Below are positions 9,349 through 31,332 of a stretch of 36,104 nucleotides of DNA, one piece after another. The notes beneath the pieces were generated by a model. That model did not search any database, was not told where the DNA came from, and was given only the letters and a program-made list of their open reading frames with translations. Both the position numbers and the translations under genes were made by a program. Position 1 is the first letter of the stretch; every line of letters starts with the position of its first letter. The stretch is from an uncultured Oscillospiraceae bacterium. Its GTDB lineage: Bacteria; Bacillota; Clostridia; Oscillospirales; Ruminococcaceae. The stretch is taken from contig CASEVW010000141.1 of assembly GCA_949291395.1 (NCBI GenBank), positions 1-36,104 on the forward strand. The letters are read 5' to 3'.

Positions 9349-9370
9349 AACATTTTTCTCCTTGACACAC

Positions 9371-9426
9371 AAAAAGAGCCATATATTCGCCTGTTTGTAA
9401 GTCAGAAACAGGAAAATATATAGCCC
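9371..9426 (-). promoter_or_regulatory. Terminator-like hairpin in the leader of the MATE gene
   Basis: On the transcribed (minus) strand, twelve base pairs (arms 9415-9426 and 9376-9387 with wobbles), an inner loop, then CCTGTTT/AAACAGG, followed by five T at 9371-9375. It lies between the promoter at 9480-9508 and the ribosome site, so it could stop transcription early and act as an attenuator. It does not match a riboswitch class I know. Confidence 0.7.
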
Positions 9427-9445
9427 TTCATACACAAAAATTCAT

Positions 9446-9463
9446 CGGCATGCCCCCATGCCG
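9446..9463 (-). promoter_or_regulatory. Upstream leader hairpin of the MATE transcript
   Basis: A perfect seven-pair stem CGGCATG/CATGCCG with a four-base loop, close to the predicted 5' end of the MATE mRNA and upstream of the terminator-like hairpin. Confidence 0.6.
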
Positions 9464-9479
9464 TTTTGGGACGGCTATT

Positions 9480-9508
9480 ATAATACCATCCCTGTCTAAC
9501 TTTGTCAA
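9480..9508 (-). promoter_or_regulatory. Strong sigma-A promoter of the MATE gene
   Basis: On the minus strand: TTGACA (9503-9508), 17-base spacer, TATTAT (9480-9485). Predicted start near 9473 gives a leader of about 125 bases. Confidence 0.88.
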
Positions 9509-9516
9509 GCACAAAC

Positions 9517-9563
9517 AAAAAGCGGCATGGAAGGCCTTGTTTCGGCCTTCCATGCCGCTTTTT
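9517..9563. terminator. Terminator after the Cys-tailed protein gene
   Basis: A perfect 20-base inverted repeat (9517-9536 / 9544-9563) with A-rich and T-rich ends on both sides. Read on the minus strand it ends the gene at 9585-9920. Confidence 0.94.
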
Positions 9564-9584
9564 CAAATCTTACTTGCCGCCGGT

Positions 9585-9920
9585 TCAGCAGCCGCAGCCC
9601 CCGCCGCAGCAGTTGTTGCAGCCATCTTCCCCATCATAGTTGGGGTAGTACAGGTTGTTGGCCACGAACTCCAGTTTTTCTTTCAAAATGTTTTCCAGCC
9701 CGCCGATCACGTTGACCATGTTGGCCACCGATTCGTTGACCTCCATCATCTGGCTGAAGTCGATCTCCTCCATGGCCAGAGCCTTTTGCAGCTTTTCACC
9801 TTCGGCGTTGAGAATGTGGCTCATGGCGGTCTCTTCCAGGGCGATGCTCTCCAGCAGATCGGTGACGGCTTGGCGCATACTCACAGGGTTGGGATTGCAG
9901 GCAATACTCGGCATAGACAT
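9585..9920 (-). CDS. Small hypothetical protein with LSHILNAEGEK-type motif and Gly/Cys tail
   Basis: A 111-residue protein. Residues 20-45 (TDLLESIALEETAMSHILNAEGEK) match a motif seen in many Firmicutes surface or exosporium-type and collagen-like proteins; this resemblance is from memory of the family, not a search. The middle is a likely coiled coil (about 45-85, SVANMVNVIGGLENILKEKLEF). The last 14 residues are a Cys/Gly tail with six Cys. GGAGGT precedes the ATG. No enzyme motif is seen. Disulfide or metal cross-linking in a surface or spore layer is possible. Its tail recalls the Cys-rich protein at 29959-31332. Confidence 0.75.
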   Translation of the reverse strand: MSMPSIACNPNPVSMRQAVTDLLESIALEETAMSHILNAEGEKLQKALAMEEIDFSQMMEVNESVANMVNVIGGLENILKEKLEFVANNLYYPNYDGEDGCNNCCGGGCGC

Positions 9921-10026
9921 TGTGCGTTACCTCCGTAAATTTGGATTCCCACATTTGAATGTTGGTTAACCCACTATATGCTTTTGCCAAGATTTTGTGC
10001 AGATACCCGGCCAATTCTTCCCTGTT

Positions 10027-12015
10027 TTATCCGTTCATCCGGTGTTCCGGGGCAATGTACAAACTGTCCTTGCCGATGCGTTTTGCCTGATACATGGCCG
10101 CATCCGCTTTTTCGTACAGGGCGGCAAAGTCCACGCAGTCTTTGTCCATATAGGCAACGCCGATGCTCACCGACACATGGTATTTGGTGTAGTACTCATC
10201 CAGTTCCCGGTGCACGGCCTGCAAAAAGCGCTCGCCTTTTTTGGCCACTGTTTCCGGCGAAAGGTAGCCGGTCAAAAACACCACGAACTCGTCGCCGCCT
10301 AGCCGGGCCTTGATGTCGTTTTCCCGGAACTGCCGGCGCAGCAGCTGAGCGAACCGGCGCAGCAGCGCGTCACCCTCGGCATGGCCGGCGGTGTCGTTCA
10401 CCGTTTTAAAGTTGTCCAGGTCCATCATCAGCATTACGCCCTGTCCCTCCGGGTCCTCCGCACGCCACTTCTGCACGTATTCCGTCAGCCTGCGCCGGTT
10501 GTCCAGTCCGGTAAGTTCATCCTGGTAATTACGCTTTTCGCTGTCTGAAAGGTCCTGCCGCAGCAGATCCTCCCGATCCCGCTGGGCGCTCACGTCCTCC
10601 ACAAAGGCATACAAGGTATCCAGGGAGATGGTGCGGTGGATGTGCAGCAGCCGGCCGTCTTTGGTGACAACGCTTTCCACGTTGTCCATCATTTCGTTAT
10701 CGTTCTGCTTGACCTTCTCCACCCGCTGCTGGAACACCTCCACGATCCTCGCTTTGCACTCTTCCTCGGTCATGGCCATGATATCCAGCAGATGATCCGA
10801 GAAAAAGAACTGGTTCAGCTTGGGGTAGTACTCATAGGCTGCCACCCCCTGGCCCATGTCATTGGCAATGGTGGAAAGCCGGGTCCCTGCCAGCTGGATG
10901 ACCGCAAGCACCTTGTCCAGATTGTCCGCCAGTTCGTCCAGGTCCCGTGTGGAGCCTCGGCCAAAAGAAATGTCCCGCTCGCCAGACACAAAACGAAGCA
11001 GGCCCTCGTTGATGTTTTCCACGCCCCGCAGCACCAGCCGGTCGATGAGGAAGAAGAGGGCTACCACGATCAGGACCGACAGCCCTGCCAGGCAGGCGGC
11101 GATCACCCTCATATAGGTATTCACGTTTTCTTTCATGTGCTGCAGCGTGGTGGCACAGCCGATGAGCATGCCCTCGTGATCCTGCACGCACACCAGCTGC
11201 TTTTCCCCGTTCACCACCATGATCTGGGGATCCTGCAAAGCAGTGAGCAGCATTTCCTTGCGGTTTTCGATCTGCAGCGCCTGGTCATTGTTGGCAGAAA
11301 CGCCCAGCAGCTGGTCAGTGGCTTCTTCAATGGCAAACACCGTGCGGTAATGCCGGGTGGGAATGGTTCCAAAATACCGCTCGATGCTGTAGGCATCCTC
11401 AAATTTGGTCAGCGTCTCCGGCGAAGCCTCGATCCATATCACACTGCCCCCCAGATAGTCCGAGCGGATGGCTAGGTTCACTGTTTCCTCACCGGCGGCA
11501 AGAGAAACGCCCTGCAGATCGATCACAGGATCTACCCGCTCAGGGTCTTCGAGCAGCGGAAGAATCTCCGCCGCCCGGGGATCATCCGAAATATCCAGGC
11601 CAATGCACGCCGGCGCGCTGCTTTGCAGGATCACGCCGTCCAGGCCGATCACATGGATGACGTCCAGGCCTCTGCTTTTGGCGGCCTCCTGCCACTCCTC
11701 GTTGGACACAGCGCCGTCGGGGCTGCTTTCCGCCAGGGCGTTCACCAGCTCCAGCCGGTTCAGGCGGTCGTTGAGAAACAACTGCCGCGCCTCGTCCTCC
11801 AGCTCTTCGTTGATCTTCATGTTCTCCACGATCTGGTCAATGATCGTGCGGGAGGACGCTTTCTCCATGCTCAGCTCGTGCCCCATGGAGATCAGCCAGC
11901 AGACGGCCAACAGTGCCACTCCTGCCACAAGCATCACCAGGGAAATATAAGTAAGTATTTTCAGGCGCATATTCAGCCGTTTTTTGCCGCCTTTGTTTGA
12001 CAGCCTTCGATCCAC
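10027..12015 (-). CDS. Membrane diguanylate cyclase (GGDEF) paralog 1
   Basis: A 662-residue protein. One membrane helix at about residues 16-40, an extracellular sensor region of about 260 residues, a second helix near 304-326, a HAMP-like linker, a PAS-like segment (MGQGVAAYEYYPKLNQFFFSDHLLDIM) and a C-terminal GGDEF domain. The active site is RLGGDEFVVF, and RxxD lies five residues before it (REND), the product-inhibition site, so it should make c-di-GMP and be feedback-limited. Start: GTG at 12015 after AGAGGTG; this aligns with the start of paralog 2. Much of the length is close to paralog 2. No EAL domain is present. Confidence 0.92.
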   Translation of the reverse strand: MDRRLSNKGGKKRLNMRLKILTYISLVMLVAGVALLAVCWLISMGHELSMEKASSRTIIDQIVENMKINEELEDEARQLFLNDRLNRLELVNALAESSPDGAVSNEEWQEAAKSRGLDVIHVIGLDGVILQSSAPACIGLDISDDPRAAEILPLLEDPERVDPVIDLQGVSLAAGEETVNLAIRSDYLGGSVIWIEASPETLTKFEDAYSIERYFGTIPTRHYRTVFAIEEATDQLLGVSANNDQALQIENRKEMLLTALQDPQIMVVNGEKQLVCVQDHEGMLIGCATTLQHMKENVNTYMRVIAACLAGLSVLIVVALFFLIDRLVLRGVENINEGLLRFVSGERDISFGRGSTRDLDELADNLDKVLAVIQLAGTRLSTIANDMGQGVAAYEYYPKLNQFFFSDHLLDIMAMTEEECKARIVEVFQQRVEKVKQNDNEMMDNVESVVTKDGRLLHIHRTISLDTLYAFVEDVSAQRDREDLLRQDLSDSEKRNYQDELTGLDNRRRLTEYVQKWRAEDPEGQGVMLMMDLDNFKTVNDTAGHAEGDALLRRFAQLLRRQFRENDIKARLGGDEFVVFLTGYLSPETVAKKGERFLQAVHRELDEYYTKYHVSVSIGVAYMDKDCVDFAALYEKADAAMYQAKRIGKDSLYIAPEHRMNG

Positions 12016-12063
12016 CTTTGAAACACCTCTTTGTTTTTGCGGGCCTTGTCCATCGTCCGCCTG

Positions 12064-12107
12064 AAAAAAACAGCGGAGCCTATGCACGATTACATAGACC
12101 CCGCCGT
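12064..12107 (-). promoter_or_regulatory. Terminator-like leader hairpin of GGDEF paralog 1
   Basis: Arms 12099-12107 and 12070-12078 with an inner TATG/CATA stem, followed on the minus strand by seven T (12064-12070). It lies downstream of the gene's own promoter (12186-12214), so it can act on this gene's transcription; it may also end read-through from paralog 2. Confidence 0.72.
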
Positions 12108-12185
12108 ATTTTTTATAGGGAACGGACAACGATCTGTTTTATCCCAAGTTTTTTTAAAACAAATCGAAAGACGATTGCTAACCCT

Positions 12186-12214
12186 ATTATACCCATCGTC
12201 CCGCCGCCCGTCAA
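12186..12214 (-). promoter_or_regulatory. Sigma-A promoter of GGDEF paralog 1
   Basis: Minus strand: TTGACG (12209-12214), 17-base spacer, TATAAT (12186-12191). Predicted leader about 165 bases. Confidence 0.87.
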
Positions 12215-12256
12215 GAGGATTTTTGCCCGGTGCAAAGCCATTTTGCGCCGCCTTTG

Positions 12257-14257
12257 TCACGTTTTCAGGATGCTGGAGCCATCAATATACAAGCTATCCT
12301 TGCCGCTACGCTTGGCAATATACATGGCGGCATCCGCCCGCTCGCCCAGGGTGTCAAGGTCCGGGCAGTTTTCGTCCATATAGGCAACGCCGATGCTCAC
12401 CGAAACATGGTATTTGGTATAGTACTCCCGCAGCTCCTGGCGCACCGTTTCCAAAAAACGCCGGCCCCGCCGCTCCACTTCTTTGGGAGCGACATACAGC
12501 GGCAGGAACACCACAAATTCGTCGCCGCCCAGCCGAGCCTTGATGTCTCCTTCCCGGAACTGATGGTTCAGCAGCTGTGCAAACAAGCGCAGCAGCCGGT
12601 CGCCCTCGGCGTGGCCCGCCGTGTCGTTCACCATTTTAAAGTTATCCAGATCCATCATGAGCATCACGCCCCGGCCTTTGGGGTTCTGCTTCTTCCACTG
12701 TTCCAGATACTCCGCCAGCCGGCGGCGGTTGCTCAGGCCGGTCAGCTCGTCCACATAACTGCGCTCCTCGCTGTGGCGCAGGTCCTGGCGCAGCATGTCC
12801 TCCCGGTCTCGCTGGGCGCTCACGTCCTCCACAAAGGCATAGGAGGCGTTATAGGAGACCGTACGGTGGATGTGCAGCAGCCGGCCGTCCTTGGTGATGT
12901 AATACTCCACATTCTCCACGATCTCTGCGCCAAGCTCTTCGCCCCGCAGCCGCTGCTTCTCAAACACCTCCACGATCTTATCCTTGCATTCCTTCTCGGT
13001 CATATTCATCAGCTCCAGCAGATGATCCGAGAAGAAAAACTGGTTCAGCTCGGGGTAATATTCGTAAGCTTCCACTTCCTGGCTCATGCCGTTGACTACC
13101 TGGGCCAGCCGGGTGCCGGTCACCTGGATGGCCCCCAGCACCTTGTTCAGATTTTCGGCCAGTTCGCTCAGCTCGTTGGTATTGCCTGGCCCAAACATCA
13201 CGTCCGATTCGCCGGACACAAAGCGCACCAACCCGCTGTTGATCTCTTCCACTTTCCGGAGCATCAGCCAGTCGATCAAAAAGTAAAGGGTAATGCCCAC
13301 CAGGGCGGACAGGCCCACCAAACAAAGTGCCACCACGACCATATAGGCTTTCACATTTTCCATCAGCTGGGCCATAGTGGAAGCACAGCCGATGAGCATG
13401 CCATTGTACTCCTCCACATACACCACCTGGGACTCGCCGTTCACCTGGATCACCTGGGGCTCTTCCAGTGCAGTGCGCAGCGTTTCCAGCCGGTCGTCGA
13501 TCTCCAGTGTCTGCTTGTTATTTTCCGAAATACCCAGCAGCTCATCGGTGGTGCCGTCCACCACAAAGATGGTGCGGTAGCGGCGGGTGGGGATGGTGCT
13601 CACATACCATTTAATGTTGTAGGCGTCCTCGTAATCGTACAGGTCGTCCATGGAGATCTCCAGCTGGATCACACTGCCGCCCATGTAATCGGAACGGAGG
13701 CCCATATAGACCTGCTGGTGGCCGGTGGTAATGGAGATCCCCTCCATATCCACATAATAGGCTTCCCGGCTGTTCGATTCGATCAGCGGGATAAATTCCG
13801 CCAATTCCGGGTGGGCGTAAAAATCAAGGCCAATGCTTGCCGGGGCGCTGCTCTGGACGATCACGCCGTCCGACCCGATCACGTGGATGGCAGCCACATC
13901 CACAGTGTCCGCGATGTTCTGCCATTTGGCGGGATCAGCGTTGCCGTGCAGGTTGCTCTCCAGCAGCGAGCGCACCAGCCGCAGCCGGTTCAGGTAGTCC
14001 TCCACGAACAGGCCCCGGACCTCGGCATTCAGGGTCTCGTTGTTCTTTATGGTCTCCAGCACCTGGGCCACTTCGGCCAGCTGAGACTCTTTTTCCAATT
14101 TGATCTCGTGGAACAAAGAGGTGTTCCAAAACACGCCGGTCAGCAGCAGCGTGGTGACAAGCATCACTGCTGTAATATACAACAGCAGTTTGCGCCGTAT
14201 GTTGAATTTTCGCCTGGCTCCGCCCTTTCTGCTTGCCCTCTTATTGCCGCTTCCCAT
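12257..14257 (-). CDS. Membrane diguanylate cyclase (GGDEF) paralog 2
   Basis: A 666-residue protein with the same layout as paralog 1: basic N-terminus, helix at about 21-45, extracellular sensor of about 260 residues containing IHVIGSDGVIVQSSAPASIGLD, second helix near 300-325, HAMP-like linker, PAS-like segment and GGDEF domain. The active site is RLGGDEFVVF with an I-site RxxD (REGD) five residues before. Start is the ATG at 14257 with a G-rich AGGGGGG site. The GGDEF and PAS parts are much closer to paralog 1 than the sensor part, as expected of a tandem duplication followed by change in ligand range. Confidence 0.93.
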   Translation of the reverse strand: MGSGNKRASRKGGARRKFNIRRKLLLYITAVMLVTTLLLTGVFWNTSLFHEIKLEKESQLAEVAQVLETIKNNETLNAEVRGLFVEDYLNRLRLVRSLLESNLHGNADPAKWQNIADTVDVAAIHVIGSDGVIVQSSAPASIGLDFYAHPELAEFIPLIESNSREAYYVDMEGISITTGHQQVYMGLRSDYMGGSVIQLEISMDDLYDYEDAYNIKWYVSTIPTRRYRTIFVVDGTTDELLGISENNKQTLEIDDRLETLRTALEEPQVIQVNGESQVVYVEEYNGMLIGCASTMAQLMENVKAYMVVVALCLVGLSALVGITLYFLIDWLMLRKVEEINSGLVRFVSGESDVMFGPGNTNELSELAENLNKVLGAIQVTGTRLAQVVNGMSQEVEAYEYYPELNQFFFSDHLLELMNMTEKECKDKIVEVFEKQRLRGEELGAEIVENVEYYITKDGRLLHIHRTVSYNASYAFVEDVSAQRDREDMLRQDLRHSEERSYVDELTGLSNRRRLAEYLEQWKKQNPKGRGVMLMMDLDNFKMVNDTAGHAEGDRLLRLFAQLLNHQFREGDIKARLGGDEFVVFLPLYVAPKEVERRGRRFLETVRQELREYYTKYHVSVSIGVAYMDENCPDLDTLGERADAAMYIAKRSGKDSLYIDGSSILKT

Positions 14258-17667: not shown

Positions 17668-18432
17668 TTGCGTTTTATCATCTCCCCCGCCAAAAAGATG
17701 AATGTGGATACCGATTCCTTTGCGCCCCAGGGCCTGCCCCGTTTTCTGGACAAGGCCGAAACGCTGAAAACCTATCTGCAAGGCCTTTCTTATGAGGAAT
17801 GCAAGGCCCTTTGGAAGTGCAACGACCAGCTGGCCCAGCTGAACTTTGACCGGGTGCAGCGCATGGACCTGCACCGGGCCCTTACTCCCGCCCTGTTTGC
17901 CTACGAGGGGCTGCAATACCAATACATGGCCCCCAGCGTATTCACCCAGCAGGAGCTGGACTATGTGCAGGAGCACCTGCGCATCCTCTCCGGCTTTTAC
18001 GGCCTGCTGAAGCCGCTGGACGGCATCGTGCCCTACCGGCTGGAGATGCAGGCAAAGCTCGCCGGTTTTTCCCACAAGACCCTGTACGACTACTGGGGCG
18101 GCGCGCTGGCCGATGCCCTGGCCGCCGAGACCGACTGCATCGTGGATCTGGCGTCCAAGGAATACAGCCGCTGCGTGCAGGGCCGCCTGCCCGCCGGGGT
18201 GCGCCTGGTGAAGGTGACCTTCGGCCAGCTTTCCGGCGGCAAGCTCACCGAAAAGGCCACCCTGGCCAAGATGGCCCGGGGCGCGATGGTGCGCTACGCC
18301 GCCGAGCATGGCTGCCAGGCTCCCCAGCAGCTGACCGGCTTTGACCGGTTCGGTTTTGTGTTTGACCCCCAGCGCTCCAGCCCGGACCATCTGGTCTTTG
18401 TGCTGGACCCGGATGCCCCGCAGGCCCAATGA
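17668..18432 (+). CDS. yaaA: Peroxide stress protein YaaA (DUF328/UPF0246)
   Basis: A 254-residue protein. The N-terminus MRFIISPAKKMN and the segments ALWKCNDQLAQLNFDRVQ, YEGLQYQYM, RILSGFYGLLKPLDGIVPYRLEM and VDLASKEYSR are family hallmarks. In E. coli YaaA limits damage by intracellular iron during hydrogen peroxide stress and has a helix-hairpin-helix-like DNA-binding fold (known). Start is TTG at 17668 with AAAGGAGG upstream. The peroxiredoxin gene bcp follows, so the pair fits oxidative defence in an anaerobe. Its TGA lies within the GACC-type repeat array at 18430-18485. Confidence 0.94.
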   Translation: MRFIISPAKKMNVDTDSFAPQGLPRFLDKAETLKTYLQGLSYEECKALWKCNDQLAQLNFDRVQRMDLHRALTPALFAYEGLQYQYMAPSVFTQQELDYVQEHLRILSGFYGLLKPLDGIVPYRLEMQAKLAGFSHKTLYDYWGGALADALAAETDCIVDLASKEYSRCVQGRLPAGVRLVKVTFGQLSGGKLTEKATLAKMARGAMVRYAAEHGCQAPQQLTGFDRFGFVFDPQRSSPDHLVFVLDPDAPQAQ

Positions 18433-18485
18433 CCCATTTTGACCCATTTGACCATTTTTTATTGTTGACCAAAATACGACCAAAA
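18430..18485 (+). repeat. Array of TGACC(C)ATTT motifs before bcp
   Basis: GACC-type units begin at 18431, 18441, 18450, 18467 and 18478 (spacing about 10, 9, 17, 11), mostly followed by ATTT. The same motif makes up the arrays at 20627-20663 and 22788-22846 around the sigma-54 activator gene. No -24/-12 promoter lies next to this copy. Confidence 0.7.
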
Positions 18486-19169: not shown

Positions 19170-20459
19170 TCAGCCCTTGTCCTTTTCCATCATGATGTCC
19201 AGGATGGTCTTGTCGGTGGCAGTCATGCCCGGGTTGCTGATGCGGCCCATGTTGCGGATGGCCTTTTCCGGGGTGGTATCGCAGATGCCGTCGCTGGCGC
19301 TCACCACAACGCCGCCCATGGCCAGGTAAGCGCTCATCAGCGCCGCGCTGGAGGCGGTGGCCAGCTTCAAGGCGCAGCCGATCTTACCGCCGTCGCAGAT
19401 CATGCCGGTCAGGTTGCCGGTCATGTTGATGATGGCAGCGCCCATCTGGGCATCGGTGCCGCCCATCAGCCAGACCATGGCGGCGGAAGCGGCAGCCGCA
19501 GCAGACACGCCGCAGCCGCAGGTGGCGCTCAGCTTGCCGGTGAAGATCTTGATGTATACGTTCAGCATGTGGGAGAAGGCCAGGGCTTTTACGGTGGCTT
19601 CCTTGCTGGCGTTCACGTGCTTAGCCATTTCCACCACCGGGATGATGGCGGTGATGCCGTGGTTGCCGCTGCCAGCGCTGCTCATCACGGCGTAGGGGCA
19701 GCCGGACATACGGCCCTCGGCGCTGGAGGCCACACGCACCATGGTGTTGCTGAACAGGTTGTTGCCCATCACGTCGGTGCCCAGCTGGGCTTTCAGGGTG
19801 TCGGCGATGCCAATGCCCAGCCGGTTGGACAGGCCGTAATCCGACAGGTTCTCGTTCATCTCGGCGCCTTCCATCATGAAGTCCAGCTCTTCCTCGGTGG
19901 CGCTGTCCACCAGTTCCCGGATCTGGGCCACGGTCATGGTCTTCAGCTTTTCATGCAGCTCGTCCTCGCCGCCCAGGGTGTACTCTTTTTCAAACAGAAC
20001 CTCGTTGTTGGCGGCGGTGTACACGATGTTGGAGTGGGTGTTGCGGATGGTGCTGATGCCGATGCCCCGGGTGGTGATGACCTCGGCGTGGGCGTACAGC
20101 TGGGTCTCCTCCTCGGCGATGGTCACGGTCACCTGCTTTTCTTCCACCAGGCGGGTGGCCTCTTTGCTCACGATGCTGTTGATCTCTTCCAGCAGCTGCA
20201 AGCCCTTTTCCGGGTTGCCCAGGCAGGCGCCCAGGGCGGCGGCGTACTTCAGGCCCACCCGGTCAAATCCGGGGATGCCCACCGACATGCCGTTTTTGTA
20301 AACGCCCGGGTTCACTTCCATCTTCACGGACACGATCTGACCGCCAATGGCGTGGTAGGCGTCGGCGGCGGCCAGCGCCACGCAGACCGGCTCGGTGCAG
20401 CCCAGTGCGGGCACGACTTCCTGGTGCAGAAGGGTCAGCATTTCCTGTTTGGTCAACAT
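19170..20459 (-). CDS. cdsB: L-cysteine desulfidase (CdsB/CyuA, UPF0597 family)
   Basis: A 429-residue iron-sulfur enzyme of the YhaM/CyuA/CdsB family that splits L-cysteine into pyruvate, ammonia and sulfide. Diagnostic segments: [16 protein letters not shown] near the N-terminus, [30 protein letters not shown] and [17 protein letters not shown]; the Cys residues in the last three are likely cluster ligands. Family members are 420-440 residues. AGGAGAG precedes the ATG at 20459. A perfect -24/-12 sigma-54 promoter lies 70 bases upstream and the sigma-54 activator gene is divergent, as in the CdsB/CdsR pair known in C. difficile. A serine-dehydratase activity is a less likely option. Confidence 0.92.
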
Positions 20460-20528
20460 AATATTCGCTCTCCTATTCAAACGTTTTGTATCGAGGCACA
20501 TCCTCGGATCTTGTTCCACCCTCATTCT

Positions 20529-20544
20529 AGCAAATTCCGTGCCA
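20529..20544 (-). promoter_or_regulatory. Sigma-54 (-24/-12) promoter of cdsB
   Basis: Minus strand TGGCAC-GGAAT-TTGCT, a perfect match to the sigma-54 consensus TGGCAC-N5-TTGCT. GG and GC are exactly twelve bases apart. Start of transcription would be near 20518. Confidence 0.93.
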
Positions 20545-20588
20545 ATTTTACCATATTCCCAAAAATTTATTTGTTTTCGGGGTTTCTC

Positions 20589-20618
20589 TTGACAATCCCT
20601 GCCCAAAAGGTGCACAAT
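20589..20618 (+). promoter_or_regulatory. Probable sigma-A promoter of the activator gene
   Basis: TTGACA (20589-20594), 18-base spacer, CACAAT (20613-20618, four of six). The motif array follows at once, so the activator may also control its own gene. Confidence 0.65.
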
Positions 20619-20626
20619 GAAAGCAG

Positions 20627-20663
20627 AATTGGTCAAATCGGTCATTAAAAATTGGTTAAACAG
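20627..20663 (-). repeat. Array of TGACC(C)ATTT-type motifs between cdsB and the activator
   Basis: On the minus strand AACCAATTTT, TGACCGATTT and TGACCAATTC follow one another (spacing 14 and 9). The array is about 100 bases upstream of the cdsB sigma-54 promoter, the usual distance for an activator site. Confidence 0.75.
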
Positions 20664-20672
20664 GTGATTTGT

Positions 20673-22790
20673 ATGAAATATATCGCAGTCATTTCCTGGG
20701 ATCCCCTGGCTGGGCAGTTTTACGGCAAGCAGGTGCAGGATCTGTTTGGCAGCGCCGTCAGCGTGCAGGTGTACAGCGTGCGGGATGGCTCCATCGCGCA
20801 GATGAAGCGCCGGTTCGATCTGTATATGTCCTCCACTGACGCCTTTGAATCCGGCCGGGACCTGCGCCAGTACCTGCCCATCGACGGCGAGGTCATGGAG
20901 ATCCACCTTACCTTTTTGTGGTCGGTGGTGCGGCAGCTGCAAAAGCTGCCCGCCGGCAGCCGGGCGCTGTTCGTCAACCTGAGCGACAAGATGTCCCGCG
21001 AGGCGGTGAGCCGGCTGGACCAGCTGGGGGTGAACCAGTTCACCATGGACCTGTACCACCCAGGCTGCCCCCTGCCGGACATGAGTCAGTATGATTTTGT
21101 CATCACTCCCCACGAGACCCGCTATGTGCCCGAGGGGGCAAAGCAGGTCATCGACATCGGCCACCGGGTGTGCACCAGTGCCACCATGACCGAGGCTGCC
21201 CTGCGCCTGGGGCTGGAGGACCTGCTGGAATCCCCCCGGTTCCACCGCTACCAGGAAGAGGTAGCCGCCAACACCTACAGCTTTGACCGGGTGTTCAACC
21301 GCAGCCGCCAGCTGGAGAGCCAGTTCGACATTTTGATCGACATTCTGGACGAGGGCCTGGTGGGGGTGAACGAAAAGGGCGAGGTGTTCGCCAGCAACAA
21401 AAAGATGGAGGAGATCACCCAGGTGAGCAGCCGTTTGGCGCTGCACCGCCGGGCCAGCGAGGTCTACCCGTTCCTGCCCTTTAAACAATGTTTAAAGACC
21501 AAAGAGCCGCTGCCCGCCCGGGTGGTGAAAGCCGGCGGCACCAACCTGACGGTGACCGTGGCCCCGGTGCTGCGGGGCGGCGAGTGCATCGGCGCGTTTG
21601 CCACAGTGCAGCGCTTCAGCGACGCTGAGCAGCGCCAGAACGAATTGCGCAGCCAGTTGACCCACAAGGGCTACCGGGCAAAGTACACCTTTGCGGACGT
21701 GCTGGGCCCCTCCCCCGCCATCCAGCGCACCATTGAGATTTTAAAAAAGATGGCCGCCACCCATCTGCCGGTGCTGCTCATCGGCGAGACCGGCACCGGC
21801 AAGGAGCTGTTCGCCCATGCGGTGCACAACGCTTCTCCTCGGGCGGACGGGCCCTTTGTGGCCATCAACTGCGCCGCCATGCCGGAAAACCTGCTGGAAA
21901 GCGAGCTGTTCGGCTATGAGGACGGCGCCTTCACCGGCGCAAAACGGGGCGGCAAGCCCGGCCTGTTTGAATTTGCCCACCAGGGCACCCTGTTTTTGGA
22001 CGAGGTGGAGGGCATGAGCGCCGCGCTGCAGTGCAAGCTGCTGCGTGTATTGCAGGAGCACGAGATCATGCGGGTGGGCGGCAACCGGATCATCAGCGTG
22101 GACGTGCGCATCGTGGCCGCCACCAACGAGGACCTGGAACAGCGGGTGGAAGAGGGCAGCTTCCGCCGGGACCTTTACTACCGGCTGAACACCCTGCCCG
22201 CCCTCATCCCGCCCCTGCGGGAGCGGGGCGACGACCTGCTGCTGCTCATCGACAAATTCCGCCGCAGCACCGGGGTGGATTTCACCCTCTCGGAGGAATT
22301 GCAGCAGCTGCTGCGCACCCACCAGTGGCGGGGCAACATCCGGGAGCTGCGCAACGTGATGGAGTATTTCAGCTACACCGGCAACCCGGTGGTGGGTCCC
22401 CAGGACCTGCCCCCCACCTTTCATTACCTGCCCATCCAGGGCCAGGCCAACTGGCGCAGCAGCCTGACGCTTCAGCCCGTCGTGCCCGCCAGCCTGCCCG
22501 TGCCCGCTGAGCCGGAAGCAGCCCCCGCCCCCGGGCCGGAAGGATTCAGCCAGCAGGAGTGGTTCATCCTGGAACAGCTGTACCAGGCCAGCCGCCAAGG
22601 CCGCAGCGCCGGGCGGGAAGCCCTGCTGGCCGAAGCCCGCCGCCAGGGGGTGCTTTTGAGCCAGCAGCAGACCCGGCAGATCCTGGGCCGGCTGGCTCAG
22701 GCGGGCTATGTGCACGTGAGCCGGGGCCGGGGCGGCAGCCAGCTGACCGCCCAGGGGCAGCGCCTGTTTGCCGAAAAGGCGGGGGAATGA
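20673..22790 (+). CDS. Sigma-54-dependent transcriptional activator (CdsR-like)
   Basis: A 705-residue enhancer-binding protein. Residues 1-200 form a Rossmann-like or PrpR_N-like sensor domain, 210-320 a PAS-like domain ([27 protein letters not shown]), and 340-570 the AAA+ domain with Walker A GETGTGKE (371-378), the sigma-54-contacting GAFTGA (418-423), Walker B TLFLDEVE and arginine finger RRDLYYRLN. The C-terminus (about 625-700) looks like a winged helix ([24 protein letters not shown]) rather than the Fis-type helix-turn-helix usual in this class. Start: ATG 20673 with AGGTGAT upstream. It lies between two units with sigma-54 promoters, so it most likely controls both. CdsR of C. difficile is the best-known functional match. 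Confidence 0.93.
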
Positions 22791-22846
22791 CCCATTCTCC
22801 ACCAATTTTTGACCCATTTTGTCCTATTGACCATTTTAACCAGTTT
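22788..22846 (+). repeat. Array of TGACC(C)ATTT motifs after the activator gene
   Basis: Units start at about 22789, 22800, 22811, 22821, 22829 and 22838 (spacing 11, 11, 10, 8, 9), reading GACCCATTCT, CACCAATTTT, GACCCATTTT, GTCCTATT, GACCATTTT, AACCAGTTT. It begins at the stop codon and is about 200 bases before the sigma-54 promoter at 23026-23041. The remaining gap to 23025 holds an A/T-rich stretch with TATAAT at 22910 but no convincing -35. Confidence 0.8.
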
Positions 22847-23025
22847 CAAATTCTCGCCGGCCCATTGTCCGCCCATCCCCCGCATACCCGCCGGGGCGGC
22901 GCTTTATAATACAATTTAAGGGAGCGGCTGGCAGCCAAAAACCCACAGCAAAATGCCAAAAGATGCTCTCATTGTTTTGTGTATTCTTACAAAGTGACGA
23001 AAACAACACCGAAAAATGCATGGTT

Positions 23026-23041
23026 TGGCATGGGATTTGCT
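23026..23041 (+). promoter_or_regulatory. Sigma-54 (-24/-12) promoter of the C-S lyase operon
   Basis: TGGCAT-GGGAT-TTGCT matches the consensus except for one base. GG (23027-23028) and GC (23039-23040) are twelve bases apart. The lyase start lies 68 bases downstream. Confidence 0.92.
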
Positions 23042-23108
23042 ACATTGTTAAGCGAGAAGATGGCCCCGGCCGCCAAGGCGGGGCAACGTGAAAGGAAGGA
23101 AGCCTACT

Positions 23109-24278
23109 ATGAAATACGATTTCGACACCGTTGTGGACCGGAGCAAAAACAACGCCGCCAAATACGACGAGCGGATCAAGAAGTTCGGCACCGACAAGGT
23201 CATCCCCCTGTGGATCGCCGACATGGACTTCAAAGCCCCCCAGCCTGTGATCGACGCGCTGACCGCCCGCGCTCAGGAGGGCATTTGGGGTTACACCAGC
23301 CGGCCGGACAGCTACTTTGAAGCCATCTGCAACTGGCAGCAGCGCCGCAACGGCTGGACCATCGACCGCAGCCTGGTAAGCTGGAGCCTGGGCGTTGTGC
23401 CCGCGCTGAGCATGCTGGTGAAGCTGTTCACCCCGGAAGGCAGCAAGGTGCTGATCCAGACCCCCGTTTACGGCGAGTTCTACGATGTGACCGAGGCCTG
23501 TGGCCGCACCGTTGTGGAAAACAAGCTGGTGGAAAAGGACGGCAAGTGGACCGTTGACTGGGAAGACTTTGAGGCCAAGCTGCCCGAAGTGAGCATGTTC
23601 CTGCTGTGCAGCCCCCACAACCCCCTGGGCATCGTGTGGACCCGCGAGGAACTGACCCGCATGACCGACCTGTGCCGCAAGTACGGCGTGCTGCTGGTGT
23701 CGGACGAGATCCATTCCGACCTGATCTTCCACGGCAAAAAGCACATCCCCACCGCTACCCTGTCTGACCAGGTGGCCCACGAGGTCATCAGCTGCATCTC
23801 CGGCACCAAGACCTTTAACCTAGCCGGCCTGCAGGCTTCCACCACCGTGTTCCCCAACAAGCGGATGAAGGACCTGTACGACCGTGCCTGGATGAACATG
23901 GACATCCACCGGAACAACGCTTTTAGCCTGACCGCCATGCAGGCCGCCTTCAACGAGGGCGAGGAATGGCTGGAGCAGCTGCTGGAGTACATTTCCGGCA
24001 ACTTTGACTTCATCCACGACTACTGCGCCAAGAACATCCCCCAGATCAAGCCCCTGATGCCGGACGCCACCTACCTGGTTTGGCTGGACTGCCGTGACCT
24101 GGGCATGACCAACGAGGAGCTGCGACGCTTCATGATCGAGAAAGCGGGCCTTGGCCTGAACGAGGGCTGGGCATTCGGCCGCAGCCTGAACGGCTACATG
24201 CGTTTGAACGCCGCCTGCTCCCGCAAGGTGCTGGAACAGGCCATGAAGCAGCTGGAGGCCGCCGTCAAGGCTCTGTGA
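23109..24278 (+). CDS. MalY/PatB-family PLP-dependent C-S lyase / aminotransferase
   Basis: A 389-residue fold-type I PLP enzyme. The MalY/PatB start MKYDFDTVVDRSKNNAAKYDE and VIPLWIADMDF are diagnostic; CSPHNPLG, VSDEIHSDLIF and the PLP lysine Lys234 in SGTKTFNLAGL complete the active site. Known members are cystathionine or cysteine beta-lyases releasing pyruvate, ammonia and a thiol or sulfide. Placement behind a sigma-54 promoter next to the activator and cysteine desulfidase supports action on cysteine, cystine or a related thiol compound. GAAAGGAAGG precedes the ATG. The symporter gene follows after 71 bases. Confidence 0.92.
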   Translation: MKYDFDTVVDRSKNNAAKYDERIKKFGTDKVIPLWIADMDFKAPQPVIDALTARAQEGIWGYTSRPDSYFEAICNWQQRRNGWTIDRSLVSWSLGVVPALSMLVKLFTPEGSKVLIQTPVYGEFYDVTEACGRTVVENKLVEKDGKWTVDWEDFEAKLPEVSMFLLCSPHNPLGIVWTREELTRMTDLCRKYGVLLVSDEIHSDLIFHGKKHIPTATLSDQVAHEVISCISGTKTFNLAGLQASTTVFPNKRMKDLYDRAWMNMDIHRNNAFSLTAMQAAFNEGEEWLEQLLEYISGNFDFIHDYCAKNIPQIKPLMPDATYLVWLDCRDLGMTNEELRRFMIEKAGLGLNEGWAFGRSLNGYMRLNAACSRKVLEQAMKQLEAAVKAL

Positions 24279-24349
24279 TCCGGGGCATGCCCGCAAAAAA
24301 GGAATATGCTCTGTGCGGACGGAGCAGAAAATAAAAAGGAGAAATCATT

Positions 24350-25615
24350 ATGTCTAACACCACGACCAAAAAGCCCTCTTTGTGGCAGCAGTACAAGCTG
24401 CCCATCCTGCTGCTGGGCGGCATCGCCATCGGCTCCATCATCGGCATCGTCTCCCCCAGCGCCGGCCAGGCTCTGCAGCCTGTGGGCCAGATCTTCCTGA
24501 ACCTGATGTTCACCATCGTTGTGCCCCTGGTGTTCGTTTCCATCGCCAGTGCGGTGGGCAGCATGGCCAACATGAAGCGTCTGGGCAAGATCCTGGGCAG
24601 CACCATCTTCACCTTCCTGGCCACCGGCGCCGTCGCCTCCGTGTGCATCCTGGTATGGGTGAACATCTTCAGCCCCTCCGCCGGCACCAACATCGAGATG
24701 GGCACCGCCGAGATGGGCGAGATGCAGAGCGTGAGCGAGATGATCGTCGGTTCTCTGACCGTGAGTGACTTCTCCCAGCTGCTGAGCAAGGACCACATGC
24801 TGCCCCTGATCATCTTTGCCATCCTGTTCGGCTTCTGCGTTTCCGCCTGCGGCGGCGATGAGAGCCCTGTGGGCAAGCTGCTGGCCAACCTGAACGAAGT
24901 GATCATGAAGTTCATCGGCGTGATCATGACCATCGCCCCCATCGGCCTGGGCGCTTACTTTGCTAACCTGGTGGCCACCTACGGCCCCGAGATCATCGGT
25001 GACTACGGCCGCTCCATGGCGGTGTACTATCCCATCTGCCTGATCTACGTTGTGGTATTCTTCCCCCTGTATGCCTACTTTGCCGGCGGCAAGCTGGGCG
25101 TAAAGCGCATGCTGAAGCACATCTTCACCCCCGCTGTTACCGCTTTTGCCACCCAGAGCTCCGCTGCTACCCTGCCCGTGAATAAGGAAGCCTGCGATAA
25201 CATCGGCGTTCCCAAGGACGTGAGCGACCTGGTATTGCCCATGGGCTGCACCATGCACATGGACGGCTCTGTGCTCAGCTCCATCACCAAGATCGCCTTC
25301 CTGTTCGGCGTGTTCAACATGGAATTCACCGGCGTTGGCACCTACGCCATGGCCATCGTTGTTGCCATCCTGTCCGCCTTCGTGCTGTCCGGCGCTCCTG
25401 GCGGCGGCCTGGTGGGCGAGATGCTGATCGTCAGCATGTTCGGCTTCCCGCCGGAGGCTTTCCCCCTGATCGCCACCCTGGGCTTCCTGTTCGACCCCGC
25501 CGCCACCTGCCTGAACGCTTCCGGCGACACCATCGCTTCCATGATGGTTGCCCGCATGGTAGAGGGCAAAGACTGGCTGGTCAAGGCTGTTAAGGCCAAG
25601 GGCGAGACCGCTTGA
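24350..25615 (+). CDS. Dicarboxylate/amino acid:cation symporter (DAACS family)
   Basis: A 421-residue membrane transporter with about eight transmembrane helices and two re-entrant loops. The serine-rich motif TQSSAATLPV (near 265) and the LPMGCTMHMDGS motif near 300 are the substrate and sodium sites of the GltP/DctA/TcyP family. This family moves glutamate, aspartate, C4-dicarboxylates, or, in Bacillus TcyP, L-cystine; the neighbours make cystine or another sulfur amino acid the favoured inference. AAAGGAG precedes the ATG. It is co-transcribed with the C-S lyase. Confidence 0.92.
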   Translation: MSNTTTKKPSLWQQYKLPILLLGGIAIGSIIGIVSPSAGQALQPVGQIFLNLMFTIVVPLVFVSIASAVGSMANMKRLGKILGSTIFTFLATGAVASVCILVWVNIFSPSAGTNIEMGTAEMGEMQSVSEMIVGSLTVSDFSQLLSKDHMLPLIIFAILFGFCVSACGGDESPVGKLLANLNEVIMKFIGVIMTIAPIGLGAYFANLVATYGPEIIGDYGRSMAVYYPICLIYVVVFFPLYAYFAGGKLGVKRMLKHIFTPAVTAFATQSSAATLPVNKEACDNIGVPKDVSDLVLPMGCTMHMDGSVLSSITKIAFLFGVFNMEFTGVGTYAMAIVVAILSAFVLSGAPGGGLVGEMLIVSMFGFPPEAFPLIATLGFLFDPAATCLNASGDTIASMMVARMVEGKDWLVKAVKAKGETA

Positions 25616-25653
25616 TCCCTTTTTCCCCATGCAGAACACAAACGTTTTTGCTA

Positions 25654-25682
25654 TTGATTTTTTGTACCGGACTCGCTATAAT
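25654..25682 (+). promoter_or_regulatory. Sigma-A promoter of ridA
   Basis: TTGATT (25654-25659), 17-base spacer, perfect TATAAT (25677-25682). It gives ridA a promoter of its own besides possible read-through from the symporter. Confidence 0.87.
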
Positions 25683-25757
25683 ATAGTTTAGTATCTTCAT
25701 GGTCGTCTTCTGCGGCCACAGCAAGGACGTCATCTCAGTTTAAGGAGGACTTTTATC

Positions 25758-26126
25758 ATGATCGTTATCGATACCAAGAACGCCCCCGGCGCCATCGGCC
25801 CCTACTCTCAGGGCTTTGAGGTAGGCAACCTGGTCATCACTTCCGGCCAGCTGCCCGTAGACCCCTCTACCGGCAACATGCCCGAGGGCATCGCTGCTCA
25901 GGCCGAGTGGAGCTGCAAGAACGTGGGCGCCATCCTGGAGGCCGCCGGTTCCGGCTTTGACAAGGTGGTCAAGACCACCTGCTTCCTGGCCAACATGAGC
26001 GACTTCGCCGCTTTCAACGAGGTGTACGCCAAGTACTTCACCTCCAAGCCCGCCCGCAGCTGCGTTGCTGTGAAGGACCTGCCCAAGGGCGCTCTGTGCG
26101 AGATCGAGGCCATTGCCGAGAAGTAA
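25758..26126 (+). CDS. ridA: RidA-family reactive intermediate (enamine/imine) deaminase
   Basis: A 122-residue YjgF/YER057c/UK114 protein. GAIGPYSQGFEVGNLVITSGQLPVDP and the active-site Arg100 in KPARSCVAV, with Glu115 in ALCEIEAIA, are all present. RidA speeds hydrolysis of 2-aminoacrylate, which PLP enzymes make from serine or cysteine and which otherwise damages PLP enzymes. It thus fits next to a cysteine-degrading set. TAAGGAGGA precedes the ATG. Confidence 0.96.
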   Translation: MIVIDTKNAPGAIGPYSQGFEVGNLVITSGQLPVDPSTGNMPEGIAAQAEWSCKNVGAILEAAGSGFDKVVKTTCFLANMSDFAAFNEVYAKYFTSKPARSCVAVKDLPKGALCEIEAIAEK

Positions 26127-26146: not shown

Positions 26147-26179
26147 AAAAACACCCCCGAGATCCGGGGGTGTTTTTTT
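26147..26179. terminator. Terminator between ridA and the ABC-F gene
   Basis: ACACCCCCG pairs with CGGGGGTGT around AGATC, followed by seven T; an A-run on the other side lets it work for the convergent ABC-F gene also. Confidence 0.93.
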
Positions 26180-29958: not shown

Positions 29959-31332
29959 TCAGATCTGGATAATGGGATAGCCCATGTCGTTGCGGACCAC
30001 ACCGCGGCTCAGCACCGTGCGGCTGGCCGTTTGGACGCGGCGGACGAAGCGGACCGTATTGCCCTGGTCACCGCAGCAGCAGCCAGTGCCCGCAGTGGCG
30101 GTGCCGTTGTCGCAGCAGGTGTTGCACCCACAGCCATCGTTGCAATTGCAGCCGCAGCCAGTGTTGGCCGTGTTTGTCCCGGTGCCACAGCAGTCATTGC
30201 AACCGCAGCCACAGCCGGTGTTCGTGGTGGCAGTGCCATTGTTGCAGCAGGGATCGCAGGCATCGCAGCAGTTACAACCACAGCCATTGTTGGTGTTGGC
30301 GGTACCGTTGTTGCAGCAACAGTCGTTCCAGTTCCCGTTACAACCACAACCAGTGTTCGTGGTGGTAGTGCCGTTGTTGCAGCAAGGGTCACAGGGATCG
30401 CACTCACAGCCACAGCCGCAGCCGCTGTTGGTGGTCGCGGTGCCGTTGTTGCAGCAGGGATCACAGGGATCGCACTCACAGCCACAGCCACAGCCGCAGC
30501 CGTTGTTGGTGGTCGCGGTGCCGTTGTTGCAGCAGGGATCACAGGGATCGCACTCACAGCCACAGCCACAGCCGCAGCCGTTGTTGGTGGTCGCAGTGCC
30601 GTTGTTGCAGCAGGGATCACAGGGATCACATTCACAGCCACAGCCGCAGCTGTTGTTGGTGGTGGCTGTGCCGTTGTCACAGCAGCAGTCATTCCAGTTC
30701 CAATTACAGCCGCAGCCGTTATTCGTGGTCACAGTGCCGTTGTTGCAGCAGGGATCACAGGGATCGCATTCGCAGCCACAGCCGCAGCCGTTGTTGGTGG
30801 TCGCAGTGCCGTTGTCACAGCAGCAGTCATTCCAGTTCCAGTTACAGCCGCAGCCGTTATTCGTGGTCGCAGTGCCGTTGTTGCAGCAGGGATCACAGGG
30901 ATCACATTCACAGCCACAGCCGCAGCCGTTGTTGGTGGTCGCAGTGCCGTTGTTGCAGCAGGGATCACAGGGATCGCACTCACAGCCACAGCCGCAACCA
31001 TTGTTGGTGGTGGCTGTGCCGTTGTCACAGCAGCAGTCATTCCAGTTACAGCCGCAGCCGGTGTTCGTGGTCACAGTGCCGTTGTTGCAGCAAGGGTCGC
31101 AGGGATCGCATTCGCAGCCACAGCCGCAGCCGTTGTTCGTGGGGCACGTCCCATTTGCACAGCAGCCACAGCCATTGGTGGTGCGGACATTGTCACAACC
31201 ATTGCAGTTGTTGCAGCCGCACCCCCAGCGGAAATCAAAGTGATCCACACTACCGTCTGTTACATCCTCGTCCCCCGTGTTGGTGGGACATAGCTCTGCC
31301 AGGGTATACCATTTATCGTTCAGGTTCATCAT
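29959..31332 (-). CDS. Very cysteine-rich tandem-repeat protein of unknown function
   Basis: A 457-residue protein with about 109 cysteines. Residues 1-67 are a non-repeat head (KWYTLAELCPTNTGDED), 68-416 hold about 15 repeats, and the 41-residue tail ends MGYPIIQI and includes VRFVRRVQTASRTV. There are two main repeat types: GCGCGCECDPCDPCCNNGTATTNN (about 24 residues) and a version with NWNWNDCCC (about 22). No signal peptide or membrane helix is seen. AGAGGAGGTGC precedes ATG-ATG at 31332-31327. I do not recognise the family. Metal binding, disulfide-built surface or spore layers are possible; none is shown. The lack of stop codons in several other frames is explained by the repeat. Confidence 0.8.
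   Translation of the reverse strand: MMNLNDKWYTLAELCPTNTGDEDVTDGSVDHFDFRWGCGCNNCNGCDNVRTTNGCGCCANGTCPTNNGCGCGCECDPCDPCCNNGTVTTNTGCGCNWNDCCCDNGTATTNNGCGCGCECDPCDPCCNNGTATTNNGCGCGCECDPCDPCCNNGTATTNNGCGCNWNWNDCCCDNGTATTNNGCGCGCECDPCDPCCNNGTVTTNNGCGCNWNWNDCCCDNGTATTNNSCGCGCECDPCDPCCNNGTATTNNGCGCGCGCECDPCDPCCNNGTATTNNGCGCGCGCECDPCDPCCNNGTATTNSGCGCGCECDPCDPCCNNGTTTTNTGCGCNGNWNDCCCNNGTANTNNGCGCNCCDACDPCCNNGTATTNTGCGCGCNDCCGTGTNTANTGCGCNCNDGCGCNTCCDNGTATAGTGCCCGDQGNTVRFVRRVQTASRTVLSRGVVRNDMGYPIIQI
30085..31131 (-). repeat. Tandem DNA repeat coding for the Cys-rich units
   Basis: About 15 units of 57-78 bases, mainly 72 (type A), 66 (type B) and 78 (A with an extra Gly-Cys). Order, from the start of the gene: A B A A B A B A A+ A+ A B then three degraded units. 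Central type A units are almost identical at DNA level, pointing to recent unequal exchange. Confidence 0.9.

Follow-up and report, generated by a model that had tools for sequence, protein, structure and literature searches.

The DNA considered here (the window) is a stretch of 36,104 nucleotides from an uncultured Oscillospiraceae bacterium, contig CASEVW010000141.1 of assembly GCA_949291395.1. It carries a cassette of five genes, cdsB, an activator gene, patB, a gene for a DAACS symporter and ridA, which is probably centred on a sigma-54 regulon for the breakdown of cysteine or related thiols. Family matches placed all five at the positions and in the order given by an earlier reading made from the letters alone (the sequence-only reading). 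The features, with their positions in the window, are as follows.

19173..20459, minus strand: cdsB (cyuA), L-cysteine desulfidase, 429 amino acids (PF03313; aligns with PDB 9fsl)
20529..20545, minus strand (read 20545-20529): -24/-12 promoter of cdsB, TTGGCACGGAATTTGCT, 13/13 consensus positions
20589..20618, plus strand: sigma-70-type promoter of the activator gene, TTGACA-18-CACAAT (sequence pattern)
20631..20659, plus strand: putative upstream activating sequence (UAS) for cdsB, in the 5' leader of the activator gene: GGTCAA, GGTCAT and GGTTAA at spacings of 9 and 14
20673..22790, plus strand: sigma-54 activator, an enhancer-binding protein (EBP; P0002) of 705 amino acids with GAFTGA
Domains of this EBP, in residues: N-terminal domain, ~1-200; PAS, ~221-314; AAA+ and lid with GAFTGA, 344-584; winged helix, ~620-705
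22809..22841, plus strand: putative UAS for patB: TTGACC, TTGACC and TTAACC at spacings of 18 and 9; match to WTTRACCNNWTTRACC at 22826
23025..23041, plus strand: -24/-12 promoter of patB, TTGGCATGGGATTTGCT, 13/13 consensus positions
23109..24278, plus strand: patB/malY-type pyridoxal phosphate (PLP) C-S lyase, 389 amino acids (TIGR04350; best PDB match 4dgt)
24350..25615, plus strand: DAACS symporter (P0004), 421 amino acids, Ala replacing the substrate arginine (PF00375; alignment with PDB 9bgz)
25654..25682, plus strand: sigma-70-type promoter of ridA, TTGATT-17-TATAAT (sequence pattern)
25758..26126, plus strand: ridA, enamine/imine deaminase, 122 amino acids (TIGR00004)
26147..26177, plus strand: terminator 3' of ridA

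In Pfam, CdsB scored 189 bits for SDH_alpha, the symporter 338 for SDF and RidA 136 for Ribonuc_L-PSP. The activator has a Sigma54_activat domain (PF00158) of 235 bits with the GAFTGA motif, and an rpoN gene is present in the genome, as expected of a sigma-54 activator.

The cdsB and patB promoters each match all 13 specified positions of the consensus YTGGCAYGNNNNTTGCW, and end 69 nt and 67 nt, respectively, 5' of the start codons. The pattern TGGCAYRNNNNTTGCW has seven matches in the 2.58-Mb genome of the window, two of which are the cassette promoters, against one for the control pattern read backwards. A single copy of rpoN was found elsewhere in this genome (G000:C135, E 5.8e-49), its 5' end, encoding the N-terminal part of the protein, lying beyond the contig edge. 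It is near a thioredoxin-reductase-like gene, named by eye. As to the other pattern matches, those on contigs C83 and C136 were rejected as sigma-54 targets, being inside genes of the opposite strand (6-phosphofructokinase-like and ROK-kinase-like, named by eye), as was that on C33, which has no clear target gene. The match on C110 starts 54 nt 5' of the start codon of a DJ-1-like gene (named by eye), which is possibly a further sigma-54 target of this genome; the same 16 bases were not found in the six relatives searched. The seventh match is on C146.

A scan with the N-terminal domain of the activator yielded 25 named loci. Nineteen of these (L042-L060) come from Gemmiger, Fournierella, Flavonifractor and metagenome-assembled genomes labelled Intestinimonas, Oscillibacter, Enterenecus and Oscillospiraceae, and with the window and a locus of relative G026 (L033) they form a set of 21. 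In all 19, cdsB, the EBP gene and patB adjoin, with cdsB truncated by a contig end in two (L046 and L051). In 16 of the 19 a symporter of at least 76% identity is encoded 3' of patB (in L051 at a distance of about 1 kb); 15 have ridA, one of the four losses (L054) being at a contig end. The usual symporter is replaced in L048, L053 and L060 by another DAACS of 44-46% identity, which in L048 and L060 is beyond a further EBP gene.

The promoters are kept as well. At least 11 of the 13 positions match in 21/21 orthologous cdsB regions (13 in 14 loci, 12 in six, 11 in one) and in 21/21 patB regions (13 in nine, 12 in eleven, 11 in one), in a scan that required GG and GC and so fixed those four columns by construction; the spacer bases, read beside that, vary among the loci in both promoters. 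When the regions were shuffled for 200 rounds, as first-order Markov resamples scanned without the GG/GC requirement, a mean of 0.41 (cdsB) and 0.62 (patB) of 21 reached 11 or more, with a maximum of 3/21. The 21 loci are related, some closely and several as near-identical pairs, and are not 21 independent tests. The activator gene has a -35-like hexamer of at least 5/6 in all 21 regions, with a -10 of 3-4/6. The -24/-12 promoters that the sequence-only reading saw before both flanking units thus hold, and what it proposed to look for, an rpoN gene elsewhere in the genome and the gene order and both promoters in relatives, is there.

Between the genes, half-sites are strongly oriented. In the 21 gaps between cdsB and the EBP gene, GGTYAW occurs 44 times in one orientation against 5.8 expected from shuffles, and 6 times against 3.7 in the other; in the 21 gaps between the EBP gene and patB there are 38 against 5.7 in the target-facing orientation and 7 against 5.0 in the other. 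These enrichments are partly post hoc, because the form GGTYAW was picked after the k-mers had been seen, but orientation and spacing were not selected for. The first pattern, TTGGTYW, was weakly enriched, 17 against 4.6 (shuffle maximum 12) and 12 against 4.9 (shuffle maximum 13). On both sides of the activator gene, the half-site becomes TTTRACC when written in the direction of the target promoter. Of the distances between neighbouring half-sites, 9 bp is the most frequent (cdsB side, 8 of 23 pairs; patB side, 11 of 20). When lags were ranked within the cassette, 9 took second place on either side (z 1.7 and 2.3), after 21 and 18, and a 9-bp period could not be demonstrated across the whole EBP family. 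The exact double repeat WTTRACCNNWTTRACC has three matches in the genome of the window: before patB, in the leader of a bcp-type gene and on contig C188, the last without a clear target. Among six relatives searched, it has zero matches in G002, G004 and G006; those of G001, G014 and G026 are outside the cassette and inside open reading frames.

The TTTRACC arrays are likely, by their placement, to be the binding sites of the activator. Since the cdsB-side array is between the sigma-70-type promoter of the activator gene and its start codon, it suggests that the activator may repress its own gene. A similar array of TGACC repeats was seen at 18429-18480 of the window, directly 3' of yaaA and overlapping a sigma-70-like promoter of the bcp-type peroxiredoxin gene (named by eye); a two-copy form is present in four near relatives (L042-L045). 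Because no sigma-54 promoter was seen at this array, it is possible that the activator represses there, or the array may merely be a -35 box.

The activator itself is unusual in its make-up. Pfam recognises the AAA+ domain, the lid and a weak PAS. The AlphaFold2 model (mean pLDDT 79, pTM 0.56) has a mostly confident alpha/beta domain over residues ~1-200, a PAS-like fold at 228-314 and a winged-helix C-terminal domain, most of whose fold has pLDDT above 90. Most of the top Foldseek matches of the DNA-binding domain are winged-helix regulators of MarR, MntR, LmrR or Rrf2 type, at E values of 0.0099 or worse. No Fis family was among the 15 Pfam matches of the activator or the best 25 of 33 for the C-terminal alignment. 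A Foldseek search with residues 1-338 returned mainly PAS-containing structures among the best 50 matches. The profile of the N-terminal domain had no match among PDB sequences at E up to 10; in 25 members carrying the domain, Pfam gave no family beyond PAS above a chance-looking level, and PrpR_N (PF06506) matched 0/25 at E up to 1. An hhalign alignment to PrpR_N covered 198 columns with E 0.0015 and a probability of 17%.

This N-terminal domain was found in 32 of the 391 sampled genomes of the class. In 40 loci that were fetched there are 41 members, 39 with a GAFTGA-type motif, and a sigma-54-type promoter could be paired with a downstream frame 34 times. The genes 3' of these promoters include, with Pfam confirmation, an M20 peptidase, an aromatic amino acid lyase, an Asp/Glu racemase, a lysine-2,3-aminomutase-like protein and a DcuC-type carrier; others were named by eye. 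A related protein, EBP2, with 42-45% identity to the activator, precedes a second patB (50-53%) in L062-L064 and L066, at 8900-12500. In L062 an M20 peptidase gene diverges from it, and the genes that follow it encode an AbgT transporter, a pyridine-nucleotide-disulfide-oxidoreductase/rhodanese protein and a further protein of cdsB type. Upstream sites of the form GGTTGAA, 9 bp apart, are present in L062-L064 and not in L066 or L061. The gene content suggests that the EBP2 cluster may be a sister regulon for acylated cysteine conjugates. In L065 (9001-11099) an EBP match falls into four overlapping pieces next to a patB match in one piece, which would mean a broken gene or sequencing errors.

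Sigma-54 may have little other use in some of these genomes. With every candidate scored, the genome of the window has one EBP match at 1e-15 or better, the cassette activator; five more, none better than E 1.6e-8, resemble other AAA+ proteins. An rpoN gene (E 1e-30 or better) is present in 8 of 61 relatives. A full-length activator orthologue accompanies it in seven of the eight and is in 0 of the other 53, a few of which have weak EBP-like matches. The exception is G018, where the EBP is a different one, encoded divergently from another cdsB that has a 13/13 promoter. With the same scoring of every candidate, just one EBP reaches 1e-15 or better in four of the eight rpoN genomes: it is the cassette activator in G000, G006 and G026, and G018 is the fourth; the others have two to four. 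In G026, rpoN is directly 3' of cdsB on the same strand (L235, 13833-16380), and this arrangement is a nearly self-contained sigma-54 cassette.

In a wider sample of 297 genomes of the family, rpoN was found in 33, an EBP match at 1e-25 in 36, and both in 26, the EBP counts being lower bounds (no more than 11 candidates were scored in any genome, and several of the genomes are incomplete). At these cut-offs seven rpoN genomes have no EBP match and ten genomes with an EBP match have no rpoN, which means either a loose coupling or genes overlooked by the searches. A single EBP match was seen in 11 rpoN genomes. In seven it adjoins cdsB or patB (G000, G006, G018, G026, G542, G633 and G665); in G465, G491, G671 and G676 it is away from both as far as could be seen, the loci of the first two being short.

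CdsB aligns with the L-cysteine desulfidase of PDB 9fsl (1.6e-31), the Cys-x-Glu pair and the cluster cysteines being kept, and these catalytic and cluster motifs are kept in 17 of 17 further loci examined. In the archaeal enzyme MmCyuA, the Cys and the Glu are essential and roles have been assigned to the cluster cysteines (PMC12647591). PatB scored 473 bits for TIGR04350 (C_S_lyase_PatB), against a cut-off of 340, with 4dgt as the best PDB match (6.8e-119), and RidA 160 bits for TIGR00004, against 106. Where the aligned aspartate transporter (PDB 9bgz) has its substrate arginine, which we take to be the residue that binds the acidic side-chain carboxylate (397 in GltPh), the symporter has Ala. 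Ala is likewise there in 16 of the 17 orthologous symporters (that of the window counted), the sequence of L054 ending before the site, and in the substitutes of L048, L053 and L060. The loss of this arginine points to a neutral amino acid, not proven to be cysteine, as the substrate.

The place of ridA is less firm. The sequence-only reading had included it in the set, and it does stand next in line, but its membership of the sigma-54 unit is weakened by a sigma-70-like promoter of its own in this genus; near relatives have a -10-like TATAAT or TATAGT. The sigma-54 unit proper is therefore taken as patB and the symporter gene. In seven other loci (L046, L050-L053, L056 and L058) ridA follows the symporter gene by 50-67 nt, some with a -10-like hexamer. 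A possible stem-loop was seen between the ridA promoter and the ribosome-binding site (25683-25757 of the window, and in relatives); its arms differ among relatives and look paired by eye.

The genes, promoters, half-site arrays, conservation, rpoN and domain make-up, all read from the DNA and its translations, suggest a compact sigma-54 regulon through which cysteine, or thiol amino acids close to it, would be broken down, a reading to which we give a probability of about 0.7. The activator would be made from its sigma-70-type promoter, and its winged helix would bind the TTTRACC half-sites that flank its own gene. The N-terminal and PAS region would sense the signal, most likely cysteine or a metabolite derived from it, and the AAA+ ring would open sigma-54 polymerase at two promoters, that of the divergent cdsB and that of patB-symporter. 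The first would provide an iron-sulfur cysteine desulfidase, the second, if co-transcribed, a PLP C-S lyase and uptake of a neutral amino acid. Both CdsB and PatB would release sulfide, and RidA, next in line and partly independent, would clear the 2-aminoacrylate left by the PLP enzyme. The leader array would probably let the activator repress its own gene. A regulon of this kind, in which a single activator serves two enzymes from sulfide-releasing families together with a transporter, was the central proposal of the sequence-only reading, and genes, promoters, conservation and rpoN agree with it. That reading did not bring up the half-site arrays beside the activator gene, the single-EBP genomes or the published XcyR-malY prediction.

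Several observations weigh against so specific a function. Elsewhere, members of the EBP family adjoin genes that serve the catabolism of other amino acids or of peptides, so that belonging to this family is in itself no sign of cysteine. Three of the 19 loci have a substitute symporter, and in four no ridA was found. The cargo of a neutral-amino-acid DAACS could be serine or alanine, and the substrates of PatB enzymes include cystathionine and other S-conjugates. On the regulatory side, three of the 21 patB-side regions (L055, L057 and G026) have no half-site in the expected orientation, the exact double repeat is in the cassette only in the genome of the window, the half-site form was chosen after inspection, and the rpoN copy of this genome is cut by the contig end.

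The same architecture might serve S-substituted cysteines, cystathionine or serine as substrate and signal, with CdsB clearing the cysteine formed and sulfide from free cysteine being secondary. The breadth of PatB-type lyases, which is general knowledge, and a symporter that looks neutral, not cysteine-specific, would fit, and the EBP2 cluster of L062, where patB is paired with an M20 peptidase/aminoacylase-type protein and AbgT, fits N-acyl S-conjugates. However, none of the cassette genes of the window encodes an acylase, the desulfidase has the CyuA-specific Cys/Glu pair, and C. difficile uses the same pair of enzymes with cysteine; we regard this alternative as unlikely, although it deserves more weight than the following two. 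Peptide degradation is the function given in 2019 to the XcyR group, for which malY-pepT-hyp is the listed target, including in Flavonifractor (PMC6615313). It is a very improbable function here, as neither the five cassette genes of the window nor the corresponding positions of the F. plautii locus L058 include a peptidase, and each of the 21 loci has in cdsB a second likely target. The sequence-only reading had implied that the activator is the CdsR of C. difficile, and a simple orthologue would share, as this one does, the type of target, the GAFTGA motif and a sigma-54 promoter before a cdsB-type gene. That identity does not stand up, and we think it hardly probable: the protein has 705 amino acids against 591, an extra N-terminal domain and a winged helix instead of Fis; its putative sites are direct repeats against the inverted repeats reported for CdsR (PMC5767170); and relatives carry a separate EBP with its own cdsB.

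A broader proposal goes beyond the cysteine regulon itself, and we offer it tentatively, as somewhat short of an even chance. The activator may represent an undescribed EBP class of Clostridia, with a new alpha/beta sensor, PAS and a winged helix acting on direct-repeat half-sites of about 9 bp, that governs amino-acid and thiol catabolism; in some gut bacteria the sigma-54 system would have shrunk to the cysteine regulon, with rpoN alongside in one genome.

One further feature of the window is a cysteine-rich repeat protein with GCGCECDPCDPCCNNGT units (29959-31332, minus strand), possibly a surface or coat protein.

To our knowledge, the regulation of cysteine breakdown has been worked out in few bacteria. 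The cassette is carried by named gut bacteria, among them Flavonifractor plautii and Fournierella massiliensis, so that specific promoters, candidate binding sites and a regulator are available for testing. Cysteine breakdown has been described as a ubiquitous sulfide route in the human gut microbiome (PMC8564485).

CdsR/SigL-cdsB of Clostridioides difficile, a characterised system close to this one, shares the sigma-54 promoter before cdsB, the GAFTGA activator and the cysteine desulfidase. CdsR is a protein of 591 amino acids with PAS-AAA-Fis architecture and a putative inverted-repeat UAS, and MalY of C. difficile is also affected by SigL, a parallel to PatB here (PMC5767170). The activator of the window differs in its 705 amino acids, its extra N-terminal domain of about 200 residues, its winged-helix C-terminus and its direct repeats, and, unlike the situation in C. 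difficile, it flanks both cdsB and patB. In relatives, a different EBP is found beside a different cdsB (L039, L240 and L243); these EBPs are called CdsR-like here by gene layout, without a true CdsR sequence. Genes of cdsB type thus adjoin two unlike sigma-54 activators in related bacteria.

In E. coli, CyuA-CyuP has a regulator, CyuR, that is not of sigma-54 type, and a transporter of a different family. The likeness is in the coupling of cysteine uptake to the same desulfidase family (PMC12647591). MmCyuA (PDB 9fsl and 9he0) is of this enzyme family too, with the catalytic Cys-x-Glu and the cluster cysteines; in contrast to CdsB of the cassette it is archaeal, and a sigma-54 context is not described in the available sections of that paper. 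The activator can also be set beside RtcR, whose DNA-binding domain is presumably a winged helix. RtcR is likewise an EBP with a sensor domain outside the usual set and perhaps a non-Fis DNA-binding domain, but the sensor is CARF and the targets are for RNA repair (PMC9650030).

The closest published group, judged from descriptions, may be XcyR, a group of Clostridiales EBPs. Nie et al. (2019) described CdsR as acting on cdsB and, separately, XcyR as acting on malY-pepT-hyp; XcyR is known only by prediction, its UAS motif being called distinct (PMC6615313). Common to both is the predicted sigma-54 control of a malY/patB gene, and Flavonifractor is listed there while F. plautii carries an orthologue of the cassette. 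In its locus (L058) the sigma-54 promoter before patB is present (11/13). The likely targets here are patB-symporter(-ridA) and cdsB; Table 1 of that paper names no cdsB, symporter or ridA for XcyR. As one to thirty-five EBPs per genome are reported in the same paper, a single EBP is not new in itself, and the single-EBP genomes are of interest as unusually simple sigma-54 systems. Among the best matches of a limited literature search there was nothing on XcyR beyond PMC6615313 and no other account of such a cdsB-patB regulon. The parts were therefore known or predicted separately, and what is new is the likely joint control of cdsB and patB by one such activator, its direct-repeat sites and the single-EBP genomes of the family.

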